Virus record (IMG/VR): IMGVR_UViG_3300032240_001926
Span: 1 to 23,986 of that record
Source: a virus
Length of the DNA: 23,986 nt
Direction: 5' to 3' (one strand)
Part shown: one piece after another, positions 1,647 to 20,944 of the stretch
How the letters are laid out: each line of letters begins with the position of its first letter
Numbering within the stretch: the first letter of the stretch is position 1
Translations under genes and position numbers: made by a program
The notes under the pieces: model-generated
The model's input: only the letters and a program-made list of their open reading frames with translations
Told to the model about the DNA's origin: nothing
Databases searched by the model: none

Positions 1647-4600
1647 TTATGCTTGAGTAAGCACATTTATATTGTTTGGGTCGGATAAATTAACAGGATT
1701 CAATATTAAATAAGATTGCTGAACTTTTTCTCTAATACTAGCATAACTTAACGCATTTGTTGAAATATAATTATCATAATATTCATCGGTTTGTTGGGAT
1801 TGTAATGACCAATATTTAATATACAATCTAGTTAAATCTTCTATTATAGTAGCGTTTGTAGAGTAAGCTAATTCTGAATAGTAGTTCTTTAAATATAAAT
1901 CCATAAATTGTAAATTATTCTTTATACTTGGGAATTTAACAATTGGAGATAACTTATTACCAAAAGTTAAACAAGTATATTCCTTTTTATCATCAAATTT
2001 GGTAGGTAAATTTCCAGACCATTTTCTAGATAAATTTACATTTGTTAAATTATTGTTAAAGAACTTAATATTACCGTCTGAATTATTTGAAAGGTATACC
2101 AATGTAAATAAAGCAGCTTTCTTTTGTAGAGTATCTGCAACAATTCCAATTTCTTCAATAACTTTATTATAACTTAATGTTTTACTATCTCCTGTAATTT
2201 TAACATAAGAACTATATGCCGAATTTGTGTCACAACTTTCATTCTTGGTATCCACAGGATTTTGTGTTACAGAATTAGTAGTCTGTTGATTTGCAGCAGT
2301 AACCGTTGTTGCAGATTTAGCTTGTCTATCTTTTTCTTTTTTAACTTGTTCGTAGTAATTTTTAGAAATTTCTAATTTTAAACTCGTTAATAATCCTTGT
2401 TGGTCAGGTAATGTGTAAATTTTTTGTCTTACACCTGAAAATGTAGTTTCAAATGAACCAGGCGCAATACTGTGATTTACTTCAAGTATTAAATAAGGTC
2501 CACTAAACATTGGGACATTTCTTAATGTAAAATACATTACAGGTTGAATAGTCGCATTACCCATAGACTGAACTGTACAAGAGTAGCTTCTATTTTTATA
2601 TAAGTTAAATAAACTAACGTTTTGAGTTTGTGACCTTTTTCCATTTGTTAATTGTGATAATTCATATTGCATTAATAATGACTCCGATGTTGCTTTACCA
2701 ATATCTTGAGCCAAGTTTAAATTGTAAAACATACTTTGTTTTTGTAACCCAAAGTCAACCGCAAATCCAACAACTTTATTTGATTTTTCATTTCCGGTTG
2801 AGCCATCAACAGACTTTAATGGATTATCTTGAGCTTTGTCAATTCTAAATGAGTCATCACAAAATCCATTTTGTTTGGTGTCAATTAAAGTATTACTTGA
2901 TGGGTCTGATGATAATATGTTTACAAATTTAGTATTTGTATCAGTGTAATCAACTTCAGTGAATGTACCAAACATTAAGTTAGCACTTTCTTGAGGTCCT
3001 CCAGCACCATTTTTTTGATTATAAAAGTTAATATATCCCGGCATTGTAAATGTTACAAAGTGATGGTCTTTAAGTATTTCAGCAATAATTGTGTATATTG
3101 AAGTTGCAGGGTCTACAGATTTTATTTTATTGTTAACTTTAAAAATGTCAACTAATATCTTATCCCCAACATCTCGGCTAGCTTTATCTAAAAATAAGAA
3201 AGATTCCATAAATGAGTCTTGGTCAAAGTTGTTAGACGCAACCCATTTATCATTTAAAGCCTTAAACATATCATAGTATTCAACTTTTTCTTTACCCCCA
3301 ACTAATGCCGATGATATTGTTTTGATACTTTCAATTTTAACTGCCGGTAAAGTTTTTTGTAATGTTGTTAATGTATTATTTAATACATTATTTTTAAATA
3401 AATTTTTATTTGCCAAATACAATCTGTTATCACTAATAAAACTAGAAGTCGGATTAGTTGGATTTTTAAAAACGTAACTTGAATACAATTTAATAATTGG
3501 AGCTAATAACTTAATGTTATTTTCAGTAAAAGGGATATCAAATATTTCAAAGAAATTCGTAATACTTGACCCTGTGTTAGAATAAACATTACCACCAATC
3601 GTTGAAAATCCTACGTATTCCCTTAAAGTAACCCATTCGTTAGGGTAATTAAATTGTGAATCCGATAAACTAACCGCATTATTTGCCGTAGGTAATGCGT
3701 TTGGTGTTAAAATTTTATATGACCCAAAATCAATAGGGTCAACCACTAATTGAGTTGTAGAGTCACTAAAGAAAGAATCATAGATTGCTCTATTATAATC
3801 ATATGGGTTTGCTCTTTTTAACACAACATCAACATTTAAAAATTGTGTTAAAGTTTGAAGCTTATTATTAAACTGATTATTTTGAATTTGAGAAATGACT
3901 TGTTGTGAATTAGTACCATTTAAATTAGGTACTTTAAGTAACAACTTCATAATCATTTGGAAATTTTTATATTCTGAAATTGTGGTTGCCTCTGAATTTG
4001 TACTTGAATATTCTTTTTGCGGTTGGGAGAATTTTAAAAATTCTTGTTCAAAAATATCTAATTCATCTTTAGTAAAGACACCAAATATATCTTCAATTTT
4101 AGAATAACCATTTTGATAAATAAATGTAAATTCATTCTGTTGTTTTGAGTCAGAATGTATATTTGTCATATACTCATCATAGTTTGGTTTAGTAATTCCC
4201 GTTGGGTCAAAATATCCAAAATGAGGGTTTGACCAATCTAATCTAACTGAACCATTATATGTACCAGGAACATCAAAATCTTTTTGTAAATCCCCTGTTC
4301 CTGTATTAAAGAATTCATAATATAATTGATTTACATTAGAACCAAATGATGGTAACACATAATAACTTCCGTCATTATTTGTAGTATTTTTAAGTGCACA
4401 AGAATATGTGGAAATGTTTAAATATAATGCCGGGTCGTATGTACTTTCATTACTTGAAATTCTTGTACTATTTGGAGAATACATTTTAAATGTACCGTCA
4501 GACAAATAATACGACATTGTATTATTAATATTTGTATAGTTTAAATCAATTAAATCGTAACCATTATAAAAATAACTAAAATCATTAATTAGTTTAGGAT

Positions 4601-7600
4601 AAAATCCTAATGAAATTGTTTCATATACAAACCCTGGTAAACTTATCACATCAATATTTTTAAGAGTAATATTAAATGTTTCAGTTGTTGATGTTATAGT
4701 ATATGTTGTATCAGTATTACCATCTATAGGGTTATAATCTGATTCGTAATTAAATGACTTCCAACATTCATCTAAAATATCAACACCTGTTTCAAGATAC
4801 GTTTTATAACGGTACCAAATAGAACCATATTTTAAAATCCAAGCATACGGTAATTTGTGTAACCCACCAAATTTTCTAAACGAAGATGCAATATAATCTA
4901 ATTCAGTATAATTCTGATTGCCTGTTCCAGTACCAGTAACTTGCATATATTCTTTATACCTTTCTCTTAAAGTTGCCAAAGGTAATGAATTGAGGAAAAG
5001 ATATGCGGATTGAACATATGCAGTATTTGAACCGTTTTTTTCATTTTGAACTCCATTCTTAATTGAGTTAATAAAGAAAGGAGTATTAAACATTGACGTA
5101 CATTGAGCTTGTGACATCAATCCTTTATAATTGTCATAAAATACACTACCAATAGTTACTAATGAATTTTTAGTATCAGTTAATAAGTTAGTGTAAAAAT
5201 CATTATTAAAATTACTTGTATTAATTTGTTGTGACTTTCTATAATTAAAATTTGTCACGGGTCTATTAAAATCAAAATCCGTATTTTTATCGTAGTTAGT
5301 AACAGTTTTTAATGTTGGATTAAACATTATTGATTGAGAAGTACTATTAAATAAATCATAATTTGAAATACTTTTACCGTCTGAAATGTTAGAGTTAATC
5401 CAATCATTACTAATAAATGGTAACGTGTCGTAAAAATAATATTTGTTGTGAGTACTACCCTGAAAATATGATGTTAATGATTCAGGTTTGTCAAAATCAG
5501 GGATTGGTTGTGAAAAATCTGTTGGGAAATTAAAATATAATTTAGATGGTACTTGTGTTGTTTCATAAATTTCTTGAGTGACAAATCTATCTCTAATATA
5601 TTTGTTCCACGATTCCCCATTACCGTTATTTGAAATATGTTTTAAATAATCATCATAACCCGCAACATCAGGTTTATAATTAACCAATAAATCTAAAAGG
5701 AATGGATTACTTGTACCAATACTACTTGTAATACTTTTTGAAGTCGCTTCAGTAATTAAATTAATTAATTGTGTTTTTTGATTTTCTTCTCTATCAAATC
5801 CTTGGTAATATGTTTGTAACATAATCCTTTCAATTATTTCATAGAAAAATTTTGTTTCGTCTTTATCAGAAAAAATTAAACTACTAATAGGGGTATCAAA
5901 TGTTGATAAAGATAATCTATAAACATCTTTATTTTCATTTTGATTTGAGACATACGGATTCGGAGTACTTTCTCTTTGAGCATATCCCTTAACAAATTCT
6001 TCAACAAATTCAACTTCAGGCCATATCTCATAATTTTGAGATTGGACTGCGTTTTGATATTCAGGTTCACCAGGGTAAGCAATTTCATATTTAGTATCTC
6101 CTGATGCAGTAGTTTCTTTAACTGTAAATAAAGGCCAAGGAAAAACTTCAGAAGTTGATACAGGTTGAGAAGTATTATTACAATTCACATCATTAATTGT
6201 AAATTTACCCTTACGATATTCATTGTTTCTTTGTTCATAAGCTTTAGTATGAACATCATCTAATAATCCATAAAACGCTTCAACACTTACCACAAAAACG
6301 GCAACAATATTTCGGATAGTAGGTGAAAACCCTATACCCGCACCATTTGGGCTTGTCAATATTTTTTCTAATTCATTTGCAATTTTTTCTTCATATGATT
6401 TACGTCTCTCAATTGATTTTTTCTTTAACTCATTAGTATAGTACATAAACGTACTTTCATTACCCTCAAAAACAAAAAACTGATTGGGTACAGGTTTTAC
6501 GTCATAACCATCAGCACTTACCGCAACTGCCCCTCCAATAACTTTAGACAAACTAGCTGTAAATTCAGTTAATCCTGAAGCTGGCGGTTGTTTATGATAT
6601 CTAGCAATATAAGTTGACTCAATATCAATTTGGTCAACAGTAAATGAAATTTCTAAATCTTCTATTTTTATTTTTGATGGTAAACTTAAACTACTTTTAT
6701 TTAATAAATCATTATAATTTAAAATTATTTTATTAAGTTCTTGAATCGCATTTGTTTTATCCTGTTGAGTAATTTCCCCAGTTTTACCTTTAGTATTAAA
6801 TTTAGTCTTAAAAGTATAATATTTTCTTTTTGTAACTTTATCAATAAAAAAATCTGAAGTATCCATATATTGATTAAACCACGAATCCCCACCACCATAT
6901 AAATAAACATTTCCTTGGTACTTCTCAACATTATCTAAATAAGTGTCGCAATCTGTAAGTGGTTGAAAATCAACCTGTCCTGAATTAGTTAAAACATCTT
7001 GAACGAATTTATCTAATTTGTATTGTAATTCCTGAACAGTAATATTTGGAAAGTTTGCAGGTAAAGTACCATTAGCCCTATACTTGTCATAAAGTTGTAC
7101 CATTTTTTGGTATCCCTTTTGAGATGTCTGAACTTCACTAACACTTTGATTACTACTATTTGATGTATTACTTTGTTTTGTTATTGTAAATTTTGATGTA
7201 TACATATGTGGGGTCGCTAACACCTCACCTAAAGTAACTTCCCCAAATGGTCCGTATTTGTACGCTATGAACACTAAAGTAACTATAAAGTTACCTGAAG
7301 ATGAATCATATGATGAATTAAATTTTTGTAGTAACAATGGATACCTAACCGCCTTACCATAAAAACCTTTAAGAGTTAAATAAAATACAGGATATGGTAA
7401 TGTGAAAAATGCTGCGTATGGTGAGTTATTACCTTGTTCAAACATTGAACGTCCTCTTACATCAACAAGTGTAATTGTCACTGTTGGTGTAAATGATGCA
7501 TTAGTTCTCATTTGAATATTTGAGATACCTAAAAATCCATTGTCAATTAAATTACCATCATTTCTAATGTTGTCTCTTAAATCACCAATAGATTGTCCTT

Positions 7601-7952
7601 GTTGTTGTTGGTAATTAATAGACCTAGCAGTATTAACCGCAGCATCAGTACCTAATAATTCACTTAAATAATTGTTAGAAAGAAATTCCCTATCACCAGG
7701 TTTAAGGAAATTAATCTTACCAATAGTAACAGTTTCAGACCCAACTTGATTGTTAGCAACACCGTATACTAATTTACTTCTTGGGGTTAATTTACATTCC
7801 AAGTTAGCGTACATTACTAAATTTTCCTGCTTTACATATCTATCTTCCTTACCATTCTCACCATTTACAGAGTTTGGGTCTACAAGAAAAATGTTTTCAT
7901 AATCTAGGTCAATATATATACTTTCAGATTTGTCAGTGCTGTTAACGGCCAT
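1647..7952 (-). CDS. Giant baseplate structural protein (2101 aa), hub-like C-terminal region
   Basis: The N-terminal region (about residues 140-240) carries ISNIQMRTNASFTPTVTITL, VDVRGRSMFEQGNNSPYAAF and YLTLKGFYGKAVRYPLLLQ, a pattern I associate with large phage baseplate proteins. The middle (about 700-1650) is long, rich in N, S, T and Y, and unassigned. Around residues 1785-1840, SMGNATIQPVMYFTLRNVPM, GPYLILEVNHSIAPGSFETT and FSGVRQKIY resemble the baseplate hub fold family (gp27 / gpD / VgrG type: G-x-P...P, then a V-x-H-x-I-x-PG-F-T strand pair). A linker rich in K, Q and T (about 1850-1910) leads to a C-terminal domain (about 1915-2101) that faintly resembles a lysozyme or glucosaminidase fold. 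The ATG overlaps the end of the 107-aa gene by 11 bases, implying coupled translation. T4 has no baseplate protein this large, so fusion or domain insertion is likely. Naming a single T4 equivalent would be a guess. Confidence 0.75.
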   Translation of the reverse strand: MAVNSTDKSESIYIDLDYENIFLVDPNSVNGENGKEDRYVKQENLVMYANLECKLTPRSKLVYGVANNQVGSETVTIGKINFLKPGDREFLSNNYLSELLGTDAAVNTARSINYQQQQGQSIGDLRDNIRNDGNLIDNGFLGISNIQMRTNASFTPTVTITLVDVRGRSMFEQGNNSPYAAFFTLPYPVFYLTLKGFYGKAVRYPLLLQKFNSSYDSSSGNFIVTLVFIAYKYGPFGEVTLGEVLATPHMYTSKFTITKQSNTSNSSNQSVSEVQTSQKGYQKMVQLYDKYRANGTLPANFPNITVQELQYKLDKFVQDVLTNSGQVDFQPLTDCDTYLDNVEKYQGNVYLYGGGDSWFNQYMDTSDFFIDKVTKRKYYTFKTKFNTKGKTGEITQQDKTNAIQELNKIILNYNDLLNKSSLSLPSKIKIEDLEISFTVDQIDIESTYIARYHKQPPASGLTEFTASLSKVIGGAVAVSADGYDVKPVPNQFFVFEGNESTFMYYTNELKKKSIERRKSYEEKIANELEKILTSPNGAGIGFSPTIRNIVAVFVVSVEAFYGLLDDVHTKAYEQRNNEYRKGKFTINDVNCNNTSQPVSTSEVFPWPLFTVKETTASGDTKYEIAYPGEPEYQNAVQSQNYEIWPEVEFVEEFVKGYAQRESTPNPYVSNQNENKDVYRLSLSTFDTPISSLIFSDKDETKFFYEIIERIMLQTYYQGFDREENQKTQLINLITEATSKSITSSIGTSNPFLLDLLVNYKPDVAGYDDYLKHISNNGNGESWNKYIRDRFVTQEIYETTQVPSKLYFNFPTDFSQPIPDFDKPESLTSYFQGSTHNKYYFYDTLPFISNDWINSNISDGKSISNYDLFNSTSQSIMFNPTLKTVTNYDKNTDFDFNRPVTNFNYRKSQQINTSNFNNDFYTNLLTDTKNSLVTIGSVFYDNYKGLMSQAQCTSMFNTPFFINSIKNGVQNEKNGSNTAYVQSAYLFLNSLPLATLRERYKEYMQVTGTGTGNQNYTELDYIASSFRKFGGLHKLPYAWILKYGSIWYRYKTYLETGVDILDECWKSFNYESDYNPIDGNTDTTYTITSTTETFNITLKNIDVISLPGFVYETISLGFYPKLINDFSYFYNGYDLIDLNYTNINNTMSYYLSDGTFKMYSPNSTRISSNESTYDPALYLNISTYSCALKNTTNNDGSYYVLPSFGSNVNQLYYEFFNTGTGDLQKDFDVPGTYNGSVRLDWSNPHFGYFDPTGITKPNYDEYMTNIHSDSKQQNEFTFIYQNGYSKIEDIFGVFTKDELDIFEQEFLKFSQPQKEYSSTNSEATTISEYKNFQMIMKLLLKVPNLNGTNSQQVISQIQNNQFNNKLQTLTQFLNVDVVLKRANPYDYNRAIYDSFFSDSTTQLVVDPIDFGSYKILTPNALPTANNAVSLSDSQFNYPNEWVTLREYVGFSTIGGNVYSNTGSSITNFFEIFDIPFTENNIKLLAPIIKLYSSYVFKNPTNPTSSFISDNRLYLANKNLFKNNVLNNTLTTLQKTLPAVKIESIKTISSALVGGKEKVEYYDMFKALNDKWVASNNFDQDSFMESFLFLDKASRDVGDKILVDIFKVNNKIKSVDPATSIYTIIAEILKDHHFVTFTMPGYINFYNQKNGAGGPQESANLMFGTFTEVDYTDTNTKFVNILSSDPSSNTLIDTKQNGFCDDSFRIDKAQDNPLKSVDGSTGNEKSNKVVGFAVDFGLQKQSMFYNLNLAQDIGKATSESLLMQYELSQLTNGKRSQTQNVSLFNLYKNRSYSCTVQSMGNATIQPVMYFTLRNVPMFSGPYLILEVNHSIAPGSFETTFSGVRQKIYTLPDQQGLLTSLKLEISKNYYEQVKKEKDRQAKSATTVTAANQQTTNSVTQNPVDTKNESCDTNSAYSSYVKITGDSKTLSYNKVIEEIGIVADTLQKKAALFTLVYLSNNSDGNIKFFNNNLTNVNLSRKWSGNLPTKFDDKKEYTCLTFGNKLSPIVKFPSIKNNLQFMDLYLKNYYSELAYSTNATIIEDLTRLYIKYWSLQSQQTDEYYDNYISTNALSYASIREKVQQSYLILNPVNLSDPNNINVLTQA

Positions 7953-8268: not shown

Positions 8269-11200
8269 TTATATGAATTTTATTTTATCATTAAATGTAA
8301 TTAAATCATTTGTTAAGTTAACAGTTTTGTAGATATTTTGTAATTCTGTTTGTTGTTGTGACGTTGGGTTTGTAAGTTGTGTAAACGGAACGTTTCTTTC
8401 AACACCTTTAACAAACGGAGTATATTTGTCTTTGGAATAAAGATTATTAAACTGTGTGGTAATATTTGGGAAATTATCGGCTACCACATTTTGAGCGTTT
8501 CGGTATATACTCATACCATAATTTAATTGATTTTCAATTACTGATGACATACTTTGTGGAGAATTAACGTTAGTGATATTAACTGTTAATTTTTTTAAAA
8601 AATCCGGGTTAGTTTTAGGATTATTCCACATACCATACATTAAAGTACCCATTTTTTGATATATTATTGGATATTCAGTTAATGATATTGATGGTGAAAT
8701 TGCAAAATTTTCTTTGTCGTATGTGTCAGTCAAGAATCCATTATTTTTAAATAAAGTAATAAAACTATTTAAGTCAGTACCTACTTGACTATAATCTAAT
8801 TGTAAATTAGTGAATACTGTACTAGCACTTAAACCATAAACAGTCGTACTATTGTCAACTTTAATTTTACCATCACTTGCTAAGTCAACATAGTTTAATT
8901 TTCTTAAAACTTGAACATAATTTTCTTGAACCGATGTTAAATTATTAACAATTTCACTAACACCATTTAAATTATAAACTTTACATTCATTAAAAAGATT
9001 GGTTAAATTTGTTTTGAATTTTTTAATATCTGAATTTTTAAATCCTGCATTTTCTAACTCAATCACAATATAATTTGTGTCTATACCATTAATTAAATTA
9101 TTTGTCAAATCTTCTAACGTTTTTTGAAAATCAACATATTTTCCAGCTATTTCACTTGTAGTTGGTGTACTAAATTTTCTTATGTCACCTCTATAACAAT
9201 TATGATATTTTGTAGTTAATTGGGTCATACCATAACCATAGTTCGCAGCAATTTTTTGAGTACTCTGATATACCGTATCAAAATAACCAATGGTACTATC
9301 TAATAACGTATCCATTATTTTAGTAAAACTTGTAGTACCAGTAGTCCCTGAAGATGTCCTAAATATATCTTGTACATCCCCAATTGTTGAACCTCCATTA
9401 GTTTCAGGAACACCGTTATTAGTTATAGGTACAATAGGTTTACCATCAAATATTGCAGCAATTATTGACTCATCTAATGCTTTTGTACTTTCAGTTTCAT
9501 CAGCTCTTTCATCATACATTTCAGTATTTGCGTAGAAATTAAATGATAGTGCATTTTGTAACTTATCAATTGGTTCTTTTAATCCCATACCTCCAATAAT
9601 TGCAAATCCCATAGTTACGTTAGCAATCATCGGTTGAACACCAATACCTTCAGGATTTAAATCTAAAATTAATGGGTCATAAGTTATACTTAATGAATTC
9701 GGTATAATTTTAGTATTATAAAAATCACCAATTCTTAAGACAAGAACAGGTGGAGTACCAAAAGAAGTATTAACAGCATCATTTGAAACTACCTCACCAT
9801 TTAGTCCTTTTGTTTGGATAGTATCACCAGGTCTAACACATTGTTGTAAAAATGTTAATCGTGAATTTAATCCTTCAGGTGTCATTGAGTGAAAAGCCGG
9901 ATGGAAATGAGTCAATTTTTGTCTCATATTATCATAGAAGTTAGGGTCTTCACCTTTAACCATATCAAAGTAATTACATTCACTTAAAAGGTATCTTAAA
10001 AGTTTTTTAGCAATTTTTTCTCTATTTTTTTGTTTTTGTCCAACAACAACAGGTTCAGTTTTAGTAATAGTATCTTTAGTTGTTTTTGGTACATTAGTTA
10101 CAGTTATAGTTTCTTCATTATTATCAGGTTGTGGTTCTGATTGGGCTTGTACAATTTTAATTGTGCTAATACCAACTTGTCTACATCCCATCGCATTTGC
10201 CGAATAAATTTGATTTGGAGGAGGTCCTCCTTCACCTTTTGCTGTGTAGAAATCTGGATTATCACTATCACCACAATTTAATTTTTTAGGCTCAATATTT
10301 TCACCATAAACCCAAACACCATTTATTTCACCAAGAGCTTCTCGTTTAAATTTTAATTTACCATCTTGAATTAATTTAGCAAATGTATTTTCCCCATCAA
10401 ATTTATAAGTTTTAAACGTATTTTCAACATTACTAACTCTTCTACTCGCCAAGTCTTTATTATATCCAACACTTGCTGTTGGGGATGTTGTTCCAGTTAA
10501 AGTAATTGTACATTGTTCAATTCTACCCTCACTTAAATCAGCATATAAATTTTTCATTAATTCCTGAACTTTCTTCCAATTCCATTCAATTATATCAAAC
10601 ATTTCACTAACCCCATCTACTTGGTCAGCGTTCGCACGTGATTTGTAAACAGATTTTTGAGTTGAATAAGATGAATATAATGTTTGATAATTAGTAGTTG
10701 TCTCTCTTTTACGAGTATCTGGGTCCGGATAATCATTTTCATAAAAGAATCCATACTTATTTTCATAAGCAGATGGGTCAAAATTAACCGGTGGATTTGG
10801 TGTTGGGTTAGGAGTTACTGTTACAATTTCTTCATTTATAGTATTAGTAATTTCAGTGATAGTTGTTTGATTTTGAATAATGTTTTCAACTTCAAAGAAA
10901 AATTCAGGTGGAAAATTTTGATATATTGTTGCCAAATCATATAAGTCATAATTTTTACAACCTGAAAAAAATGAGTCTAAAATTTTATTCAATACCTTAT
11001 CATCCATACTTTTATAAACTTTGTTAACTAATAAATTAACAATTGACGGATGGTCAACAATTATTTTAAAACTTAAAGTACCAGTTCTTGTAGTATCTTT
11101 ATAAGTGTAAATTGGTTCAGGTCTTCCAAGGAAAGAATTGGAGTGAAAGTTAGGCGTTGATGTATCAGAAAAACTAATTCCATATGGTGGGAACCACATA

Positions 11201-13188
11201 ATCCTACCTTTATTAGGGCCTCTTTCACAAGCAGGTAAATCTTTGTATTGTAAACCGGCTCTTGTAGAACCCGCCCAAGCCAAATTCTCAATTGAGAACA
11301 TATATTTTTTAACTGAAGCGTTTTCTGATTTAACATTAAAAATGTTAGTTGAACTTTCTTCACTTGAAGGTGCAATGTTTAAATTAAATGTTGAATCAAA
11401 TACTGAATATGTTGATTTTCTTATGTTACCATTAATTTCCCCCCCATCAATTCTTGCGGTAATTTTTTGTAAATCTTTATGTGTATAATACGGAGTATCT
11501 TTAGTAAACACACGACAATATTCATATCCAATAGGATTTGAATTATCGTCAGTAAACGCCATTACTTGAGAACCTTTGGTCATTATCTTATAACCATCGT
11601 GGAAAACTTTACTGATTTGATTAATCGCGTTACCAGCGTGTTTTAATTTTCTTTGTCCCTCAACTTTATCAGCTGCGTCTATTAATTGTTGAGTCTTAAC
11701 TAATATACTATTATCTCTAACAAAATCAGTATTTGTTGAAGATAACAATACTTCTGAAGCGTGTCCTGTAATAACATTTTCAATAATACGGTATTCAGGG
11801 TCCACTTTAGTAGTACCTGATAGACCAGCTCTTTTACCAGCATTATTAATTGTCTTTGTTGATGACCAAACAAACCCTCCATCAACGTTTGCACTTGAGT
11901 CAGTTGTTGATTGCCCTTTTAAACCAAATTTAATACTTGAAATTTGTTTTCCTTCAAACTCTTCAGATACAATATCTTGTCCATAAACAATTGCCGATAA
12001 CTCATCACCTTGACTATTTTCAGGTAACTCACCTGAAGGTGATGTTAAAGTACTAACATTAATTGTTTTTGACCCTACGTAGTAATAACCGGCACTTGAT
12101 TGGTTATCAAATGGATTGATAGCATTTGCTATTCTTTGTAGAATTGGTCTGTTATAATAAGGTTTGTATAAATTAAAATCTAAATTTTTAAATAAAAAAG
12201 ATTTTTGAGCACCACCCGTATTCACTAAAAATAACTCTGAAGGAGTATCTTGGTTGGTTCTTAAAATTCTTTGAGCTAAACTACCTAAACCTGTTTTATT
12301 AAACGCACTTTTAATTTGTCCGTATAAACTTTGTTGACTATTTGGGTCAGTTAGATATTGTCCAGGTATAATTGAATTTGGAAAATATGTACCACTTATC
12401 TTTTCAAGAGTTGTTAATATTCTTGTACTTCCAACTGTAATTCTAAAATCCCTATCAATTAACGGCTCAACACCTGTAACCATCTCAAATGGGTTAGATA
12501 ACGCATCACTATTAATAGGGTTTGCCATATTAGCAACTTGTCTACTAATTCTTTCAGTATAATAGTCTTTAAGTTTTTGAGCTCCAATTTTAGCTAAAAC
12601 TGTATCATTAGATAACGGTCCGTTACTGCCTTGTGGATTATCTTCCGTTAATAATGAAAGTAATGTATAACTTGATGAGTTACCAATAACATTTGTATAA
12701 TATGGTTGACCTAAACCAGGTAATATAACTGTTGTAACAAAATATAAAAGTCCGTTAGCACTAGTACTAAACTTATTAACACCAACCGCTAACTTATAAA
12801 AGTCAGATGTAATGATTGGTAATTTTTCATCATTAATAGTATATTCATTAAAATTACCAATAGCCCCTATAGGATTACCATTAGCATCAAATGTTTCCGT
12901 GGAATTTGTTGTTTGTAGTGTTGTAATAAATTCCGCACCATCTAATATTCTTGTTGGCCCATATTGATTCAACGAACCCAATACCCTTGATTGGGACATT
13001 GGTGAGAACATATTTGTTGTTACACTTGGGGTATCAACCACTCCACTAACGTTTTGAACAATCTCAAATGTTGGATTATTTACATTTGAAGTAAATGAGC
13101 CCTCTACATTATACGGTGGTAGATTTTTTGCTAATAGTGAGTCTCTTAAAGACTGTGTACTGATATAGGATAATGGCACTTCAGGCAT
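8269..13188 (-). CDS. Giant multidomain baseplate protein (1639 aa) with OmpA-like segment and tube-like domain
   Basis: The N-terminus (VPLSYISTQSLRDSLLAKN, then LPPYNVEGSF) begins a long structural region. About residues 629-715 hold FSIENLAWAGSTRAGLQ, MWFPPYGISFSD and FLGRPEPIYTYKDTTRTGTL, which look like a conserved structural module. About 780-800 is a T/P-rich linker (TPNPTPNPP). About 890-930 reads CTITLTGTTSPTASVGYNKD and LASRRVSNVENTFKTY, close to the OmpA C-terminal motif (G-x-TD...N-x-x-LS-x-x-RA-x-x-V), with the usual TD changed to TS. About 1143-1200, GTPPVLVLRIGDFYNTKIIP and GIGVQPMIANVTMGFAIIGG look like a tail-tube-like baseplate domain of the T4 gp48/gp54 or CIS-tube type. 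Residues 1200-1639 are mostly helical. It is the first gene of the baseplate operon, and a TATTTATT box lies upstream. The combined length suggests a fusion of proteins that are separate in T4. The family calls are by motif only. Confidence 0.75.
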   Translation of the reverse strand: MPEVPLSYISTQSLRDSLLAKNLPPYNVEGSFTSNVNNPTFEIVQNVSGVVDTPSVTTNMFSPMSQSRVLGSLNQYGPTRILDGAEFITTLQTTNSTETFDANGNPIGAIGNFNEYTINDEKLPIITSDFYKLAVGVNKFSTSANGLLYFVTTVILPGLGQPYYTNVIGNSSSYTLLSLLTEDNPQGSNGPLSNDTVLAKIGAQKLKDYYTERISRQVANMANPINSDALSNPFEMVTGVEPLIDRDFRITVGSTRILTTLEKISGTYFPNSIIPGQYLTDPNSQQSLYGQIKSAFNKTGLGSLAQRILRTNQDTPSELFLVNTGGAQKSFLFKNLDFNLYKPYYNRPILQRIANAINPFDNQSSAGYYYVGSKTINVSTLTSPSGELPENSQGDELSAIVYGQDIVSEEFEGKQISSIKFGLKGQSTTDSSANVDGGFVWSSTKTINNAGKRAGLSGTTKVDPEYRIIENVITGHASEVLLSSTNTDFVRDNSILVKTQQLIDAADKVEGQRKLKHAGNAINQISKVFHDGYKIMTKGSQVMAFTDDNSNPIGYEYCRVFTKDTPYYTHKDLQKITARIDGGEINGNIRKSTYSVFDSTFNLNIAPSSEESSTNIFNVKSENASVKKYMFSIENLAWAGSTRAGLQYKDLPACERGPNKGRIMWFPPYGISFSDTSTPNFHSNSFLGRPEPIYTYKDTTRTGTLSFKIIVDHPSIVNLLVNKVYKSMDDKVLNKILDSFFSGCKNYDLYDLATIYQNFPPEFFFEVENIIQNQTTITEITNTINEEIVTVTPNPTPNPPVNFDPSAYENKYGFFYENDYPDPDTRKRETTTNYQTLYSSYSTQKSVYKSRANADQVDGVSEMFDIIEWNWKKVQELMKNLYADLSEGRIEQCTITLTGTTSPTASVGYNKDLASRRVSNVENTFKTYKFDGENTFAKLIQDGKLKFKREALGEINGVWVYGENIEPKKLNCGDSDNPDFYTAKGEGGPPPNQIYSANAMGCRQVGISTIKIVQAQSEPQPDNNEETITVTNVPKTTKDTITKTEPVVVGQKQKNREKIAKKLLRYLLSECNYFDMVKGEDPNFYDNMRQKLTHFHPAFHSMTPEGLNSRLTFLQQCVRPGDTIQTKGLNGEVVSNDAVNTSFGTPPVLVLRIGDFYNTKIIPNSLSITYDPLILDLNPEGIGVQPMIANVTMGFAIIGGMGLKEPIDKLQNALSFNFYANTEMYDERADETESTKALDESIIAAIFDGKPIVPITNNGVPETNGGSTIGDVQDIFRTSSGTTGTTSFTKIMDTLLDSTIGYFDTVYQSTQKIAANYGYGMTQLTTKYHNCYRGDIRKFSTPTTSEIAGKYVDFQKTLEDLTNNLINGIDTNYIVIELENAGFKNSDIKKFKTNLTNLFNECKVYNLNGVSEIVNNLTSVQENYVQVLRKLNYVDLASDGKIKVDNSTTVYGLSASTVFTNLQLDYSQVGTDLNSFITLFKNNGFLTDTYDKENFAISPSISLTEYPIIYQKMGTLMYGMWNNPKTNPDFLKKLTVNITNVNSPQSMSSVIENQLNYGMSIYRNAQNVVADNFPNITTQFNNLYSKDKYTPFVKGVERNVPFTQLTNPTSQQQTELQNIYKTVNLTNDLITFNDKIKFI

Positions 13189-15284: not shown

Positions 15285-15446
15285 TTACTCTGTTTTAGGA
15301 GTATGAATCTCAATTATTTTATTCACCAAATATCTTCTTTGGAAAATCGGTAAGATTAGAAAGTCATAATAAGAAATATTCATCTTTGAGGATAAGATAA
15401 AAAACTCATCCATTTGATGTACGTAAAAATCAGAAGAAAGGCCGAA
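15285..15446 (-). CDS. Frameshifted C-terminal extension of the gp26-like tail assembly protein
   Basis: After the T-run at 15450-15445 a second frame is open for 53 codons to TAA at 15287-15285, reading FGLSSDFYVHQMDEFFILSS, then KMNISYYDFLILPIFQRRYL and VNKIIEIHTPKTE. The in-phase protein ends only a few residues past the T-run (FFRPFF). The second frame is closed upstream by a TGA about 24 bases before the T-run, so the two frames overlap just at the slippery tract. The last part (Y-Y-D-F-L-x-x-P-x-x-x-R-R-Y-h-h-x-K-I) looks like a real helical domain similar to small tail assembly proteins of other myophages. A ribosomal shift of -2 or +1 would join it to the upstream gene and give about 299 or 298 aa. 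It could instead start at ATG 15413 as a free 42-aa protein, or the shift could be a T-run sequencing error. Confidence 0.6.
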   Translation of the reverse strand, partial: FGLSSDFYVHQMDEFFILSSKMNISYYDFLILPIFQRRYLVNKIIEIHTPKTE

Positions 15447-16182
15447 AAAACTCCACCCCAAAGGTCACGTTCAACGTTACCTTTCTTCCGGACGGGGCGA
15501 TTAATTCTCTCTTTAAGTCATATCTTGGTTCATTTTCAATTAAGAAATTACGGATGTATTTTGAATCCATAATAGGCATTTTTTCAATAGCCTTGGCAAT
15601 TTCACCTTTATCTCTTGTACCGTTTAATTCAACGATTTGATGTAATAATGTTTGAGTCGCCTTTGGTGGTACTAATCCTTGTGGGTAATTTTCAAGATGT
15701 CTATTAATTTCTAAATCTTCACCAAATGTTAACAACTTTATTTTAGCAGTAATATTACTTTTTGGTAATGTTACAATAAAAAGTCCCTCCTCATCAGGTT
15801 CAACTAAAGATTCTTTAATATTCATTTCTGATAAATCAACCTTACCAACAAATGGTTCACCCGTTGCAGGGTCAATTGTAGTTAAGTTATATTCAGAACC
15901 AAATGAAGTATTTCTTAAAAATATCAATATAGCTTCAATATCACCATCCAACATCGCTTCAGGTTTCAAATCAGGTTCATATAATTTATTTCTAATTAAC
16001 GCATTAATAATTGATTGTGAGTCAGCTTTTTTAATATTCATCAAATGATTCTCATCTGATGCCGTTAAAAATCCAACTTTAACACTTTTCTTTTTATTTT
16101 TGTAGAATTTACCACCGCTGGGTAAAGTCACAATATCGTGAGGTAAGTTAAAACCTATTTGACCAGCTTCTTTTGAATCCAT
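15430..16182 (-). CDS. gp26-like tail/baseplate hub assembly protein (zero-frame product, 250 aa)
   Basis: A 250-aa protein of the T4 gp26 / myophage tail assembly chaperone type. It opens with LPHDIVTLPSGGKFYKNKKK (the LPS-G-x-x-Y motif), then VKVGFLTASDENHLMN, LDGDIEAILIFLRNTSFGSE (the D-h-x-x-h-L-x-x-h-R motif with an aromatic-G pair), TLPKSNITAKIKLLTFGEDL and IAPSGRKVTLNVTFGVEFF. The cysteine pairs found in some relatives are replaced by IDPATGEPFVG. Acting in the cytoplasm, such proteins help assemble the tail initiator or keep the tape measure soluble. Its place between the tube and tape-measure-like genes fits this. The frame stops with TGA soon after a GAG-TTT-TTT-CGG tract; a shifted frame extends it (see the entry at 15285-15446). 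A terminator separates it from the tube gene, so it needs its own promoter; the leader (TTATTATAAGTAATAAAAAC) is AT-rich but lacks an exact TATTTATA box. Confidence 0.75.
   Translation of the reverse strand: MDSKEAGQIGFNLPHDIVTLPSGGKFYKNKKKSVKVGFLTASDENHLMNIKKADSQSIINALIRNKLYEPDLKPEAMLDGDIEAILIFLRNTSFGSEYNLTTIDPATGEPFVGKVDLSEMNIKESLVEPDEEGLFIVTLPKSNITAKIKLLTFGEDLEINRHLENYPQGLVPPKATQTLLHQIVELNGTRDKGEIAKAIEKMPIMDSKYIRNFLIENEPRYDLKRELIAPSGRKVTLNVTFGVEFFRPFF
15444..15450 (-). other. Candidate programmed frameshift site (TTTTTTC)
   Basis: The zero frame reads GAG TTT TTT CGG. Moving back two bases after the second TTT gives TTC GGC CTT; skipping the C gives GGC CTT. Both enter the extension frame. 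The tract resembles in form the GGGGGGC slip site of the phage Mu tail assembly genes, where a -2 shift is known. No stem-loop was clearly seen downstream. Confidence 0.5.
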
Positions 16183-16233: not shown

Positions 16234-16255
16234 AAAAAACCCCACAAATGTGGGG
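16234..16255 (-). terminator. Rho-independent terminator after the tail tube gene
   Basis: CCCCACAAATGTGGGG at 16240-16255 folds into a 6-base-pair GC-rich stem with a 4-base loop. On the minus strand it is followed by TTTTTT (16239-16234). It lies 23 bases past the tube stop codon. Confidence 0.85.
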
Positions 16256-16278
16256 CTCTTATTAATATTAATTTTAAA

Positions 16279-16767
16279 TTAGTATACTAAAATACATCTG
16301 TCAGGTCTTAAAGTTGCCGTAATAGTTGCTAAACCATCTGTAGAGTAACCTAAAGCGTTGAAGTTAACGTCAGTTAAGAAGGTGTCTTGTAACAACCATT
16401 TTTCTACAACAACTCCTGTTGGGTCTAACATTTCCAAGTCAATGTTTTTCTTATAACCCGCAGCATAACCCATACGTCCTGTAACAGACTCAGCGTGTAG
16501 ACGAACCCACTCCATAAGAGCTTGTGCTGCTGAAGGTCCAATTGGGTCACGGAACGTAACGTTAATTGTCTGCCAGTTAAATCTACCTGCAACGAATGTT
16601 GAAGTGTTTAAGAACTGAATCTCCGTAGCACCGATTGTGATGTGTGGTCTACTTGTAGATTCAACAAACCATTCATTAATTCCCAAAGAGGAATCAAATC
16701 TTAATATAAATCTATTCTGCCTTTTCGGTTCGTAAGGAATCGGCATTTTCATCAGCAAATCAGCCAT
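16279..16767 (-). CDS. Tail tube protein (gp19-like)
   Basis: A 162-aa protein matching T4 gp19 in length (163 aa) and pattern. Seen: MPIPYEPKRQNRFILRFDSS, INEWFVESTSRPHITIGATE, the loop and strand NWQTINVTFRDPIGPSAAQA, LMEWVRLHAESVTGRMGYAA, IDLEMLDPTGVVVEKWLLQD and YSTDGLATITATLRPDRC. The R-F-x-L-R-F start, the h-x-h-x-h-R-DP strand and the D-P-x-G-x-x-V-E-x-W stretch are typical of contractile phage tube proteins. Subunits form stacked hexameric rings inside the sheath. Its codons are more even and less AT-rich than those of the giant baseplate genes, as expected for a highly expressed gene. It is a single-gene unit with a TATTTATA box 33 bases upstream and a terminator downstream. Confidence 0.92.
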   Translation of the reverse strand: MADLLMKMPIPYEPKRQNRFILRFDSSLGINEWFVESTSRPHITIGATEIQFLNTSTFVAGRFNWQTINVTFRDPIGPSAAQALMEWVRLHAESVTGRMGYAAGYKKNIDLEMLDPTGVVVEKWLLQDTFLTDVNFNALGYSTDGLATITATLRPDRCILVY

Positions 16768-17770: not shown

Positions 17771-20700
17771 TTAGATATTCTCAAACGATGCTCCTGTTGG
17801 AGTGATTAAGAACTCAATGTCAATGAATTCAAGAGATTTAGTTGGTTTGATATAGATTTTACCAATCATTTGGTTCTTATCTAAATCTTCAGGAGTGTTT
17901 TGAACTGTAACTCTGAAGTCGTACAAACCTCTGTCTCTTCTAATTGAATCCAAAATTGGGTTAACTGAATCCAAGAATTGTTGTCTTACTACTTGGTCGT
18001 TTTGTTCAAACAATAATCTTACGGCTACTGCTGAAATCAATTTACGAGCTTGTAATAACAATCTTCTTACGTTGATTCTGTCAAGAGCAGATTCTTTAAC
18101 TTGTAAAGTTTTGTTACCCCAGATAACTGTTCCAACATCGTTGAAAGTTGCGATTGGGTTAATTCTTCCTTTGTAAAGAGTGTCTCTATCTTCTTGAGTT
18201 AACTTCTTACGTGCTTTAATTGCATTTACTAATCCACGTGTGTAACCTGCCGCTGCGAACCAAGGGAACGCGATGTTATCAGTCAACGCTAAGTTTCTAG
18301 TTACTTCCGCAGTTGGTGGTAAGTAGATTTGTGTATTATTAACTGTATCACGAGTAAGTACCCAAGGATAGTAAGTTGCTGTGTAGTTAGAGTCAATTCC
18401 TGATGTTTCTAAAATATCTACAACTTCTTGTGGGTAAATTAAATTATCCATAGATGTTGAAGGTTGTAGTAAGTTAAAGTCAGGGATAGTTGTGATGTAG
18501 ATAGAGTCAGCTCTATTATTCTCAATCATATCAATTGACGCTTCAACAAGATTACTGTTGTTATCAATATCAATACCAGGTGTTACAAACACGTTGATAT
18601 TAATTGCTTCAGGGTTTGCAAATGTTTGTTGTCCTAACAAATATGCGTAATAGTCAGTGTTTGCCCAATCAACTGTGTTATCGCCTACAGTGATACGTTT
18701 AAACATACCGGTACCTGTTGCGGTTGGGTATCTTGTTGATTGACAAGCTCCTTTTAAATAACCTGATTGTCCAAGTACGAACCTGTCAGAATTAGTTCTT
18801 CTTTCAGTGTAAATGTCCCATCCATCAAAACCACCTTGTACAACTAATGTGAACTTACGTGCGTAAAGTCTGTAGTATGGATTAGTTTCTGAAGTTGGTT
18901 CAGAGTGGAAAGATGCCACACCACAATCAAATGCTTGTTGTCCTGCAGTTACGTAAGCAGTTCCAATAGTCACTGCGGTAGCACCACTGTCCATATGGAA
19001 ACCTCTTGTTTTGTAAGCCCAATCAGAACCAGTAATTGCATCACAAAAATCACTAATTGGATTTTGTTTTCCTTTATATTGTAGTAAACTGTCGTCTACT
19101 CCAAATTGTGAAGAAAATCCTAAATAACTTCTTCTAACATTATCACCTGAACTCTTTGTTGAGTTATTAGTTCCACTTGAATTACCGAATGGAGGGTCAT
19201 AAATTGTTTCACCAGGGAAATAATATTTTGTTTTATACACAGGGAACGCTGGGTCAATTGTTGGGTATTCTCTATTGATATATCCTTCAAATCCACAAGG
19301 AAGTGCGTCAGTTGGAGCGTCGTAGTTAGCCTCAACCATAATGTATTTAGAGTTCAATGCATACTCTCCGTCTAATGTACCAATCTTTTTTGCGATGTAG
19401 TTATTAAGATTTGGGTCCATAGAACAGTTAGTGAATTTCTCTAAAGTAACAGGGTTTTCATCTGTGTCGTAAAAATCACGAACAATCACATCAAATGTAC
19501 CATTAGTGAATGATATATTAGCAATTGTGATTTTAATTTGTGTGTTAGCCGCATTACCATCAGAGATTGTATAGAATTTAAATAATTCATATACTTTATT
19601 ACCTCTCAATTCTGATACAACCCAAGGAGATACTGGTGTTTGATATTGTTCTAAATAGAAACCTAATGAATCACTTTGTAAACTTCTTGCAGAATCAGTT
19701 GAATCTAATCCTAAAGTACAATTAAGACCTCTAATATAACCTTTATTATAACCATAATTTAACAAGGTAGAATAAACTTCCTCAACAAATACAGGGACTG
19801 TTTCTTTTGGTTTACCAAAATTAGTAATACCTAAAACTTTAGATATGTAGTTAGCACTTGTTGGTTGTAAAGATACTTCATATTGGAAATTAGTACTATC
19901 AATAGTAACCCCTGATATTAAAAATGTTTGGAATGGATTACTTGTAACTGCCGAATAACTTCCTGAACAACTCATTATTAAATCTGTTGTTGCGGAGATT
20001 TGATATACTGGTCCGTTATCTGAACTATAATCTGCCAATCCTCTTGAACGTAAAGTCGCAATTGATATGTTATTATAATTAGAAAACGCAGTTCCACTTA
20101 AAGTATAATAGTTACCTGAAACAGTTCCTGTGAAAGACCCTGCAGTTCCGTAAGCGTTTCCTGAAAAACTAGTTACTTGTGAGTTAAAAGAATATCCTGT
20201 ATAATCATCTCCTGAAGTTATGTTGAAGTTTGAATAAAACCAAGCGTCTGACATTCCATCACAAGTGATTGCCGATAAACTTGTTACTCCAAAATTATTA
20301 ATATTGGTAGTGTAAGCCGATAAACTTGTATAATCAGTTCCTGAAATCGGTCCCCAAAAACTAGCTGTGGTCGCTGATGTTGATGGGGTTCTCATTAAAC
20401 CTAATAAGAAAGATTTCATATCATCAGAAATTGTTGATGTTCCTCCCGCAAATGTTGTATAAGTACTTGTGAAGTTGTTTAAAAGTGGTCCGGGAATTGT
20501 TGTAGTGAACGAAATTGATGACGTTGATGCAGTAGTTCCTGTGAATTTAATAGTATAAGACGTTTTTGCCGCATTATACCCAACGGTATTACAATCAACA
20601 TTCGCAACTGTCGCAATTGACCAAGATGGTCCCGCATCGTAACCTGATAATCCAAGTACTCTTGTTACAAATAATTGATTTGATTGTTGTAAGTATGATT

Positions 20701-20944
20701 TTGCAATGTAAGCTGCTTCATACTTTGGGATTTGTGTGTTCACGAATTTTTCAGGGTCAGTACCTCCAAAGTAAAGTTGGTATTCGTCGTAATTAGTTAC
20801 GAAGATTGGTTCAAAGGCTGGACCTTTTAACGCTTCCCCAACGATTCCTAAAGTAGTAACACCTACGTTTTGAGACACAAAACTCAAATCTCTCTCTGAT
20901 GTATACACACCGGGAGAAACGAAAACTGTGTTTGATGTTGCCAT
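17771..20944 (-). CDS. Tail sheath protein (gp18-like), unusually large
   Basis: A 1057-aa contractile tail sheath protein; T4 gp18 has 659. The N-terminus, VFVSPGVYTSERDLSFVSQN, then LGIVGEALKGPAFEPIFVTN and YEAAYIAKSYLQQSNQLFVT, is typical of sheath proteins. Typical later segments are TFDVIVRDFYDTDENPVTLE (about 480-500), LALTDNIAFPWFAAAGYTRG (about 880-900) and DRINVRRLLLQARKLISAVA to the C-terminus, which forms the inner domain that links subunits around the tube. Between about residues 105 and 375 lies an inserted region rich in S, T, G, N and Y (for example SGNYYTLSGTAFSNYNNISI), which would project outwards from the sheath. The gene is a single-gene unit: a TATTTATA box 31 bases upstream, a strong terminator 17 bases downstream. 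Contraction of this protein drives the tube through the host envelope. Confidence 0.93.
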   Translation of the reverse strand: MATSNTVFVSPGVYTSERDLSFVSQNVGVTTLGIVGEALKGPAFEPIFVTNYDEYQLYFGGTDPEKFVNTQIPKYEAAYIAKSYLQQSNQLFVTRVLGLSGYDAGPSWSIATVANVDCNTVGYNAAKTSYTIKFTGTTASTSSISFTTTIPGPLLNNFTSTYTTFAGGTSTISDDMKSFLLGLMRTPSTSATTASFWGPISGTDYTSLSAYTTNINNFGVTSLSAITCDGMSDAWFYSNFNITSGDDYTGYSFNSQVTSFSGNAYGTAGSFTGTVSGNYYTLSGTAFSNYNNISIATLRSRGLADYSSDNGPVYQISATTDLIMSCSGSYSAVTSNPFQTFLISGVTIDSTNFQYEVSLQPTSANYISKVLGITNFGKPKETVPVFVEEVYSTLLNYGYNKGYIRGLNCTLGLDSTDSARSLQSDSLGFYLEQYQTPVSPWVVSELRGNKVYELFKFYTISDGNAANTQIKITIANISFTNGTFDVIVRDFYDTDENPVTLEKFTNCSMDPNLNNYIAKKIGTLDGEYALNSKYIMVEANYDAPTDALPCGFEGYINREYPTIDPAFPVYKTKYYFPGETIYDPPFGNSSGTNNSTKSSGDNVRRSYLGFSSQFGVDDSLLQYKGKQNPISDFCDAITGSDWAYKTRGFHMDSGATAVTIGTAYVTAGQQAFDCGVASFHSEPTSETNPYYRLYARKFTLVVQGGFDGWDIYTERRTNSDRFVLGQSGYLKGACQSTRYPTATGTGMFKRITVGDNTVDWANTDYYAYLLGQQTFANPEAININVFVTPGIDIDNNSNLVEASIDMIENNRADSIYITTIPDFNLLQPSTSMDNLIYPQEVVDILETSGIDSNYTATYYPWVLTRDTVNNTQIYLPPTAEVTRNLALTDNIAFPWFAAAGYTRGLVNAIKARKKLTQEDRDTLYKGRINPIATFNDVGTVIWGNKTLQVKESALDRINVRRLLLQARKLISAVAVRLLFEQNDQVVRQQFLDSVNPILDSIRRDRGLYDFRVTVQNTPEDLDKNQMIGKIYIKPTKSLEFIDIEFLITPTGASFENI

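Follow-up and report, generated by a model that had tools for sequence, protein, structure and literature searches.

A conserved candidate +1 frameshift at a rare arginine codon in the gp26-like tail chaperone gene of T4-related environmental phages

Does the gp26-like tail gene of this environmental phage encode one protein or two? In the window, by which we mean the whole 23,986-nt stretch analysed (IMG/VR virus record IMGVR_UViG_3300032240_001926), frame 0 of the gene reads GAG (15453–15451) TTT TTT CGG CCT TTC TTC TGA (15432–15430) on the minus strand. The +1 (equivalently −2) frame is closed by a TGA at 15467–15465 and is then open until a stop ending at 15285; the two frames overlap by 35 nt around the T-run. 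An earlier note on this DNA had described both the early TGA and the narrow overlap correctly, and from them had proposed a programmed frameshift in a gp26-family tail gene next to a tape-measure-like gene. Comparison with relatives strongly supports that proposal. At a probability of about 0.9, we read the locus as a gene from which rare-codon +1 programmed frameshifting makes two tail chaperones: a short form, TAC-N, and an extended form, TAC-NC, which carries an additional C-terminal (T) domain (Table 1).

Table 1. Features of the candidate frameshift locus and its neighbours in the window
Feature	Position	Strand	Basis or remark
TAC-N, gp26-like putative tail assembly chaperone, 250 aa, frame 0	15430..16182	minus	Pfam, phrog_150 and AlphaFold matches
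Slip codon TTT (P-site Phe)	15445..15447	minus	TTT in 99/99 representatives
A-site CGG, rare Arg codon	15442..15444	minus	C at 15444 would complete UUC after a +1 slip
+1-frame C-terminal (T) domain, 52 codons and stop	15285..15443	minus	With TAC-N, would form TAC-NC, 298 aa
Tape-measure-like gene, 676 aa	13227..15257	minus	27 nt after the T stop; role suggested by position and length
Tail tube gene (gp19-like)	16279..16767	minus	phrog_4542, 1.4e-24
Terminator-like hairpin between tube and TAC genes	16235..16260	minus	Similar stem in relatives
Hairpin outer helix, 5′ strand GCCCC	15494..15498	minus	Pairing in relatives
Hairpin outer helix, 3′ strand GGGGU	15455..15459	minus	Ends 7 nt before the slip codon
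Hairpin inner helix, 5′ strand AAAGGU	15479..15484	minus	Compensatory changes in relatives
Hairpin inner helix, 3′ strand ACCUUU	15460..15465	minus	Compensatory changes in relatives

The frame 0 product matches the Pfam family T4_baseplate (PF12322; 8.6e-8, 32.6 bits against a curated cut-off of 24.5) and phrog_150 (baseplate hub; 4.6e-9), the latter match ending at residue 249. Judged by these matches, the gene is a member of the T4 gp26/gp51 family. The T domain by itself gave no significant family match, and the tape-measure-like protein matched no Pfam or PHROG profile. In an AlphaFold model of the long form (mean pLDDT 83) the T domain consists of helices at residues 252–267, 271–276 and 279–293. 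The model gave 52 matches at E ≤ 0.001 to predicted phage gp26/baseplate-hub proteins, and no significant match in a Foldseek search of the PDB. The extended form would be 298 aa long, with 52 codons following the slip codon, rather than the roughly 299 first estimated.

The gene sits between the tail tube gene and the tape-measure-like gene, and in the 86 relatives measured a long ORF begins 11–81 nt past the T stop. As in genes of the lambda G/GT type, the short ORF ends within the frame overlap and the downstream ORF has no conserved start of its own.

The earlier note had suggested aligning relatives to see whether the break is kept in place. Several hundred loci were collected by three queries, with patterns that hardly touch the slip motif, and by one profile that includes the protein motif EFFR[PV]. 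Collapsing these at 90% nucleotide identity over 420 nt left 106 representatives, of which 99, the window included, have an EFFR-type end and, at less than 90% nucleotide identity to each other, form the analysed set. The frame breaks at the same codon in all 99, and in none does a continuous frame encode both parts. The same break is found in the isolates Bacillus phage SP-15, Listeria phage LIS04 and Streptococcus phage GXN1; no relatives were found among GTDB species genomes. In 98 of the 99 the +1 domain is 46–61 residues long, the exception (L162) stopping after 20. Differences within the T domain fall mostly at third positions of +1-frame codons (1842, 948 and 3794 at positions 1, 2 and 3, respectively), and the residues that bridge the frame 0 stop, LSS[DEN]Y, are conserved among the representatives. 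Of the other seven representatives, five belong to a related group whose frame 0 products end in FFW... and which has a +1-frame domain too, and two have other overlaps.

The direction of the shift can be read from the slip site itself. TTT-C is present in all 99 representatives, and a step from UUU to UUC would let tRNA-Phe(GAA) re-pair with a cognate codon one base forward. The earlier note had allowed for either −2 or +1, and a −2 ribosomal shift on a six-T run, as in Mu, would reach the same frame: the window has such a run, as do 97 of the 99 representatives overall, and the second TTT would re-pair perfectly after −2. Yet L024, L104 and phage GXN1 read TTC TTT C, which has only three T in a row, and they keep both TTT-C and the same +1 domain. 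At these sites a −2 shift would put Phe-tRNA on UCU and a +1 shift gives UUC, so the direction is best read as +1. A −2 shift also leaves unexplained the CGN codon that follows the slip codon in 99 of 99 sequences, and we consider it very improbable. Phage SP-15 (GAA TTT TTT CAC) and the huge phage LR756508 (AAC TTT CTA) obey the TTT-C rule as well; LIS04 (TTT TTT AGT) keeps the +1 overlap and lacks the C. By the pattern of conservation, the essential elements are TTT-C, the rare arginine codon and an upstream hairpin, and the T-run, which the earlier note had taken as the frameshift element, is not essential.

The T domain could instead be made separately, by internal initiation or by coupled re-initiation after the TGA. 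The +1 frame of the window does contain an ATG (MDEFF), and in KVP40 and Bellamy small ORFs after gp26 are annotated as separate genes. By contrast, 28 of the 99 representatives have no ATG, GTG or TTG before the SYxD motif and 53 have no ATG, and the LSS[DEN]Y residues, which lie before any start, are conserved across the stop; together these make internal initiation unlikely. In three representatives (L093, L094 and L100), moreover, the frame 0 stop lies two codons later. Separate synthesis is on this evidence highly improbable. Nor is the two-gene solution of T4 seen in 12 large related records (94–322 kb, completeness not known), because each has a single gp26-like match, with no second full-length gp26-like gene, and one convincing T-domain match.

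Transcriptional slippage on the T-run would yield a mixed mRNA population in which one U fewer fuses the frames, and runs of T can indeed slip polymerase. Six T are, however, short for efficient polymerase slippage, L024, L104 and GXN1 have only three in a row, and slippage would explain neither the rare codon nor the hairpin; we find this explanation scarcely credible. The remaining alternative raised by the earlier note, a sequencing or assembly error in an error-prone homopolymer whose true length of five T would fuse the frames, is practically negligible, given that the same break recurs in 99 distinct sequences from many independent metagenomes and in three isolates, with none continuous, that some relatives without a T-run keep it, and that the codons flanking the slip site are under extreme synonymous constraint.

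The +1 reading gains further support from the codon that would occupy the A site. The codon after the slip is CGN in all 99 of these related sequences (CGG 43, CGC 35, CGT 19, CGA 2) and AGA or AGG in none; the C after TTT is thus there because CGN is used instead of AGR. Elsewhere in the same genes AGA accounts for 78% of arginine codons, CGG for 0.2% and CGC for 0.4%, so that the two codons found after the slip in 78 of 99 representatives together make up about 0.6% of arginine codons in the rest of the gene. In the main genes of the window CGG is 1 of 210 arginine codons, and that one is at the slip site. Likewise, each of 38 coding sequences examined has a single in-frame CGG, at the slip site. 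Part of the CGG and CGC excess may reflect dual coding, as the +1-frame residue (Gly, Ala or Val) also determines which base ends the CGN codon.

Judged from codon use in the phages only, CGG is a probable hungry codon. In the tRNA regions of six of the 12 large related records, a set from which the tRNA-rich record G008 was left out, the tRNA-Arg anticodons were UCU, ACG or UCG, and none was CCG. The records G001, G008 and G004 (those of L020, L019 and L147) gave 21–29 tRNA matches, with one tRNA-Arg(ACG) and one tRNA-Arg(UCG). The tRNA-Arg(ACG) of one relative could read CGC and CGT, which counts against the codon-hunger model.

A scan of the gene for synonymous-codon constraint placed its top clusters at the slip site itself (GGG ... 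CGN CCT TTC TTC) and about 17 codons before it (GCC CCN TCN GGA). These two segments can pair as the outer helix of a hairpin (Table 1): GCCCC/GGGGY is fully paired in 96 of 99 sequences, and in L147 and L194 UGUCC faces GGACC, two compensating changes. In phage GXN1, at 27% protein identity, the equivalent codons carry GUCC/GGAC and are separated by one codon more. In the inner helix, which is six pairs long, relatives exchange GC for AU and GC for CG. Taking both helices together, 91.4% of cells are paired and 37 cells have changed on both sides; of 500 shuffles, none reached the hairpin's values on four of five measures and two did on the fifth, and slid registers were at most 63.5% paired. 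RNAalifold recovers the outer helix unaided. Folded as a single sequence, the hairpin of the window does only moderately better than its shuffles do (z −1.8). The hairpin has a 9-nt bulge on its 5′ side; the bulge (window 15498–15487, minus strand) holds TCN GGA, of which GGA is almost invariant. The consensus fold contained no convincing downstream stimulator, and a search of Rfam returned only one sub-threshold chance match, to a CRISPR repeat.

Two other readings of this region were considered and set aside. The GGGG could serve as an internal Shine–Dalgarno sequence, but it lies 9–12 nt before the slip codon, unlike in prfB, and is replaced by GGACC in L147 and L194, where UGUCC compensates; we therefore prefer the hairpin. 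A candidate pseudoknot would pair a purine-rich GGARAAA in the hairpin with CCTTTCTTC after the slip, a pairing that covariation cannot test because its 3′ side is invariant.

How might these elements act together? In the model that we favour, most ribosomes would end in frame 0 and release TAC-N. A fraction would stall with Phe-tRNA on the UUU slip codon, since CGG, the codon that follows, is very rare in the phage. The tRNA would then step one base forward onto UUC, and reading in the +1 frame would produce TAC-NC with its T domain. The hairpin, with its base 7 nt upstream of the slip codon, would refold just behind the ribosome and favour the forward step, the presumed order being a stall at CGN followed by the hairpin-favoured step. 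With E. coli ribosomes and model constructs in vitro, refolding of an upstream hairpin weakens −1 frameshifting and promotes +1 frameshifting at CUUUGA, its +1 effect being about 60% of that exerted by the internal Shine–Dalgarno sequence (PMC6321510). By analogy, refolding behind the ribosome probably helps the +1 shift here. The timing of its action is uncertain, because with the slip codon in the P site the 3′ strand would still lie near or within the ribosome. That this natural and deeply conserved +1 site works by a hungry arginine codon and a hairpin refolding directly behind the ribosome, with the ratio of the two tail chaperones set by RNA structure upstream and not downstream of the site, we regard as an even bet. 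If the roles parallel those of lambda G and GT, the tape measure would be coated by TAC-N, and tube subunits would be brought in by TAC-NC.

Frameshifting of the G/GT type is widespread in long-tailed phages except T4 (reviewed in PMC5009743). As with lambda gpG/gpGT (PMC5009743), a single gene immediately preceding that of the presumed tape measure would here yield a short chaperone and a frameshift-extended one; the lambda shift is −1, whereas that in the window would be +1 at UUU-C, with a rare arginine codon and an upstream hairpin. With T4 the window shares the gp26-family N domain, but T4 has two separate genes, gp26 and gp51, and no frameshift, whereas the window has a single gene with a putative +1 shift. 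In T4, gp26 is reported to be the short and gp51 the long chaperone (Vladimirov et al. 2022, as cited in PMC10885494 and PMC12846349), and the assignment of gp51 as the long form agrees with phrog_150, which spans gp51 to profile position 280 and gp26 only to 235. In addition, phrog_634 groups the gp51 C terminus and the small ORFs that follow gp26 in Bellamy and KVP40 into one family. A profile comparison of the T domain with the gp51 C terminus aligned the two at the right place without reaching significance (P 0.53).

Other +1 systems resemble the locus in part. In the haloarchaeal myovirus HSTV-2 a +1 shift has been inferred as 'very likely' at the tail chaperone position (PMC5009743); the likeness is one of position and direction, in another virus lineage and host domain. 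The prfB (RF2) gene and the tail gene of Listeria phage PSA share the +1 slip of a P-site tRNA beside a slow A site (PMC5009743, PMC10885494), but their A-site codon is a stop, in place of the rare sense codon and hairpin of the window, and prfB uses an internal Shine–Dalgarno sequence where the window has a hairpin. The Vandenendeviridae and Andersonviridae also have a conserved T-rich site (GTTTTT) in a myovirus tail chaperone gene; there the direction is −1, and the available text of PMC12846349 reports no upstream hairpin.

Although lambda G/GT-like frameshifting is already known, the sequences point to +1 slippage at TTT-C in a T4-family tail chaperone gene as a new form of it, a candidate +1 version shared by many T4-related environmental phages and by isolates such as SP-15, LIS04 and GXN1. 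In the upstream hairpin, with its compensatory changes, nature provides a case on which to test whether a 5′ hairpin can push ribosomes forward, as model constructs have shown (PMC6321510). The annotations of SP-15, LIS04 and GXN1 omit the +1-frame T domain from the chaperone gene.

The shift direction varies within the family: in Bellamy, KVP40 and LR756511 it is the −1 frame that encodes the T domain, either beside a T-run or with overlapping stop and start codons. The LR756508-related group (L169–L177, L179–L183, L185 and L186) reads TTT TGG CCT and has a +1-frame T domain, with an overlap of only 23 nt in several members; the slip is possibly at TTT-T before the Trp codon. In L178 and L184 the T-domain ORF lies in another frame with an overlap of only 4–13 nt and is possibly made by re-initiation.

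Stems similar to the terminator-like hairpin between the tube and chaperone genes occur in 72 of 99 relatives and in none of the shuffled sequences, and a terminator is annotated at this place in SP-15; the hairpin may lower chaperone expression relative to the tube. Two long ORFs in the tail/baseplate region of the minus strand (1647–7952 and 8269–13188; 2101 and 1639 aa) have no PHROG match. The tail sheath protein (17771–20944, minus strand) has 1057 residues, about twice the usual size, and ends in recognisable sheath C-terminal domains.
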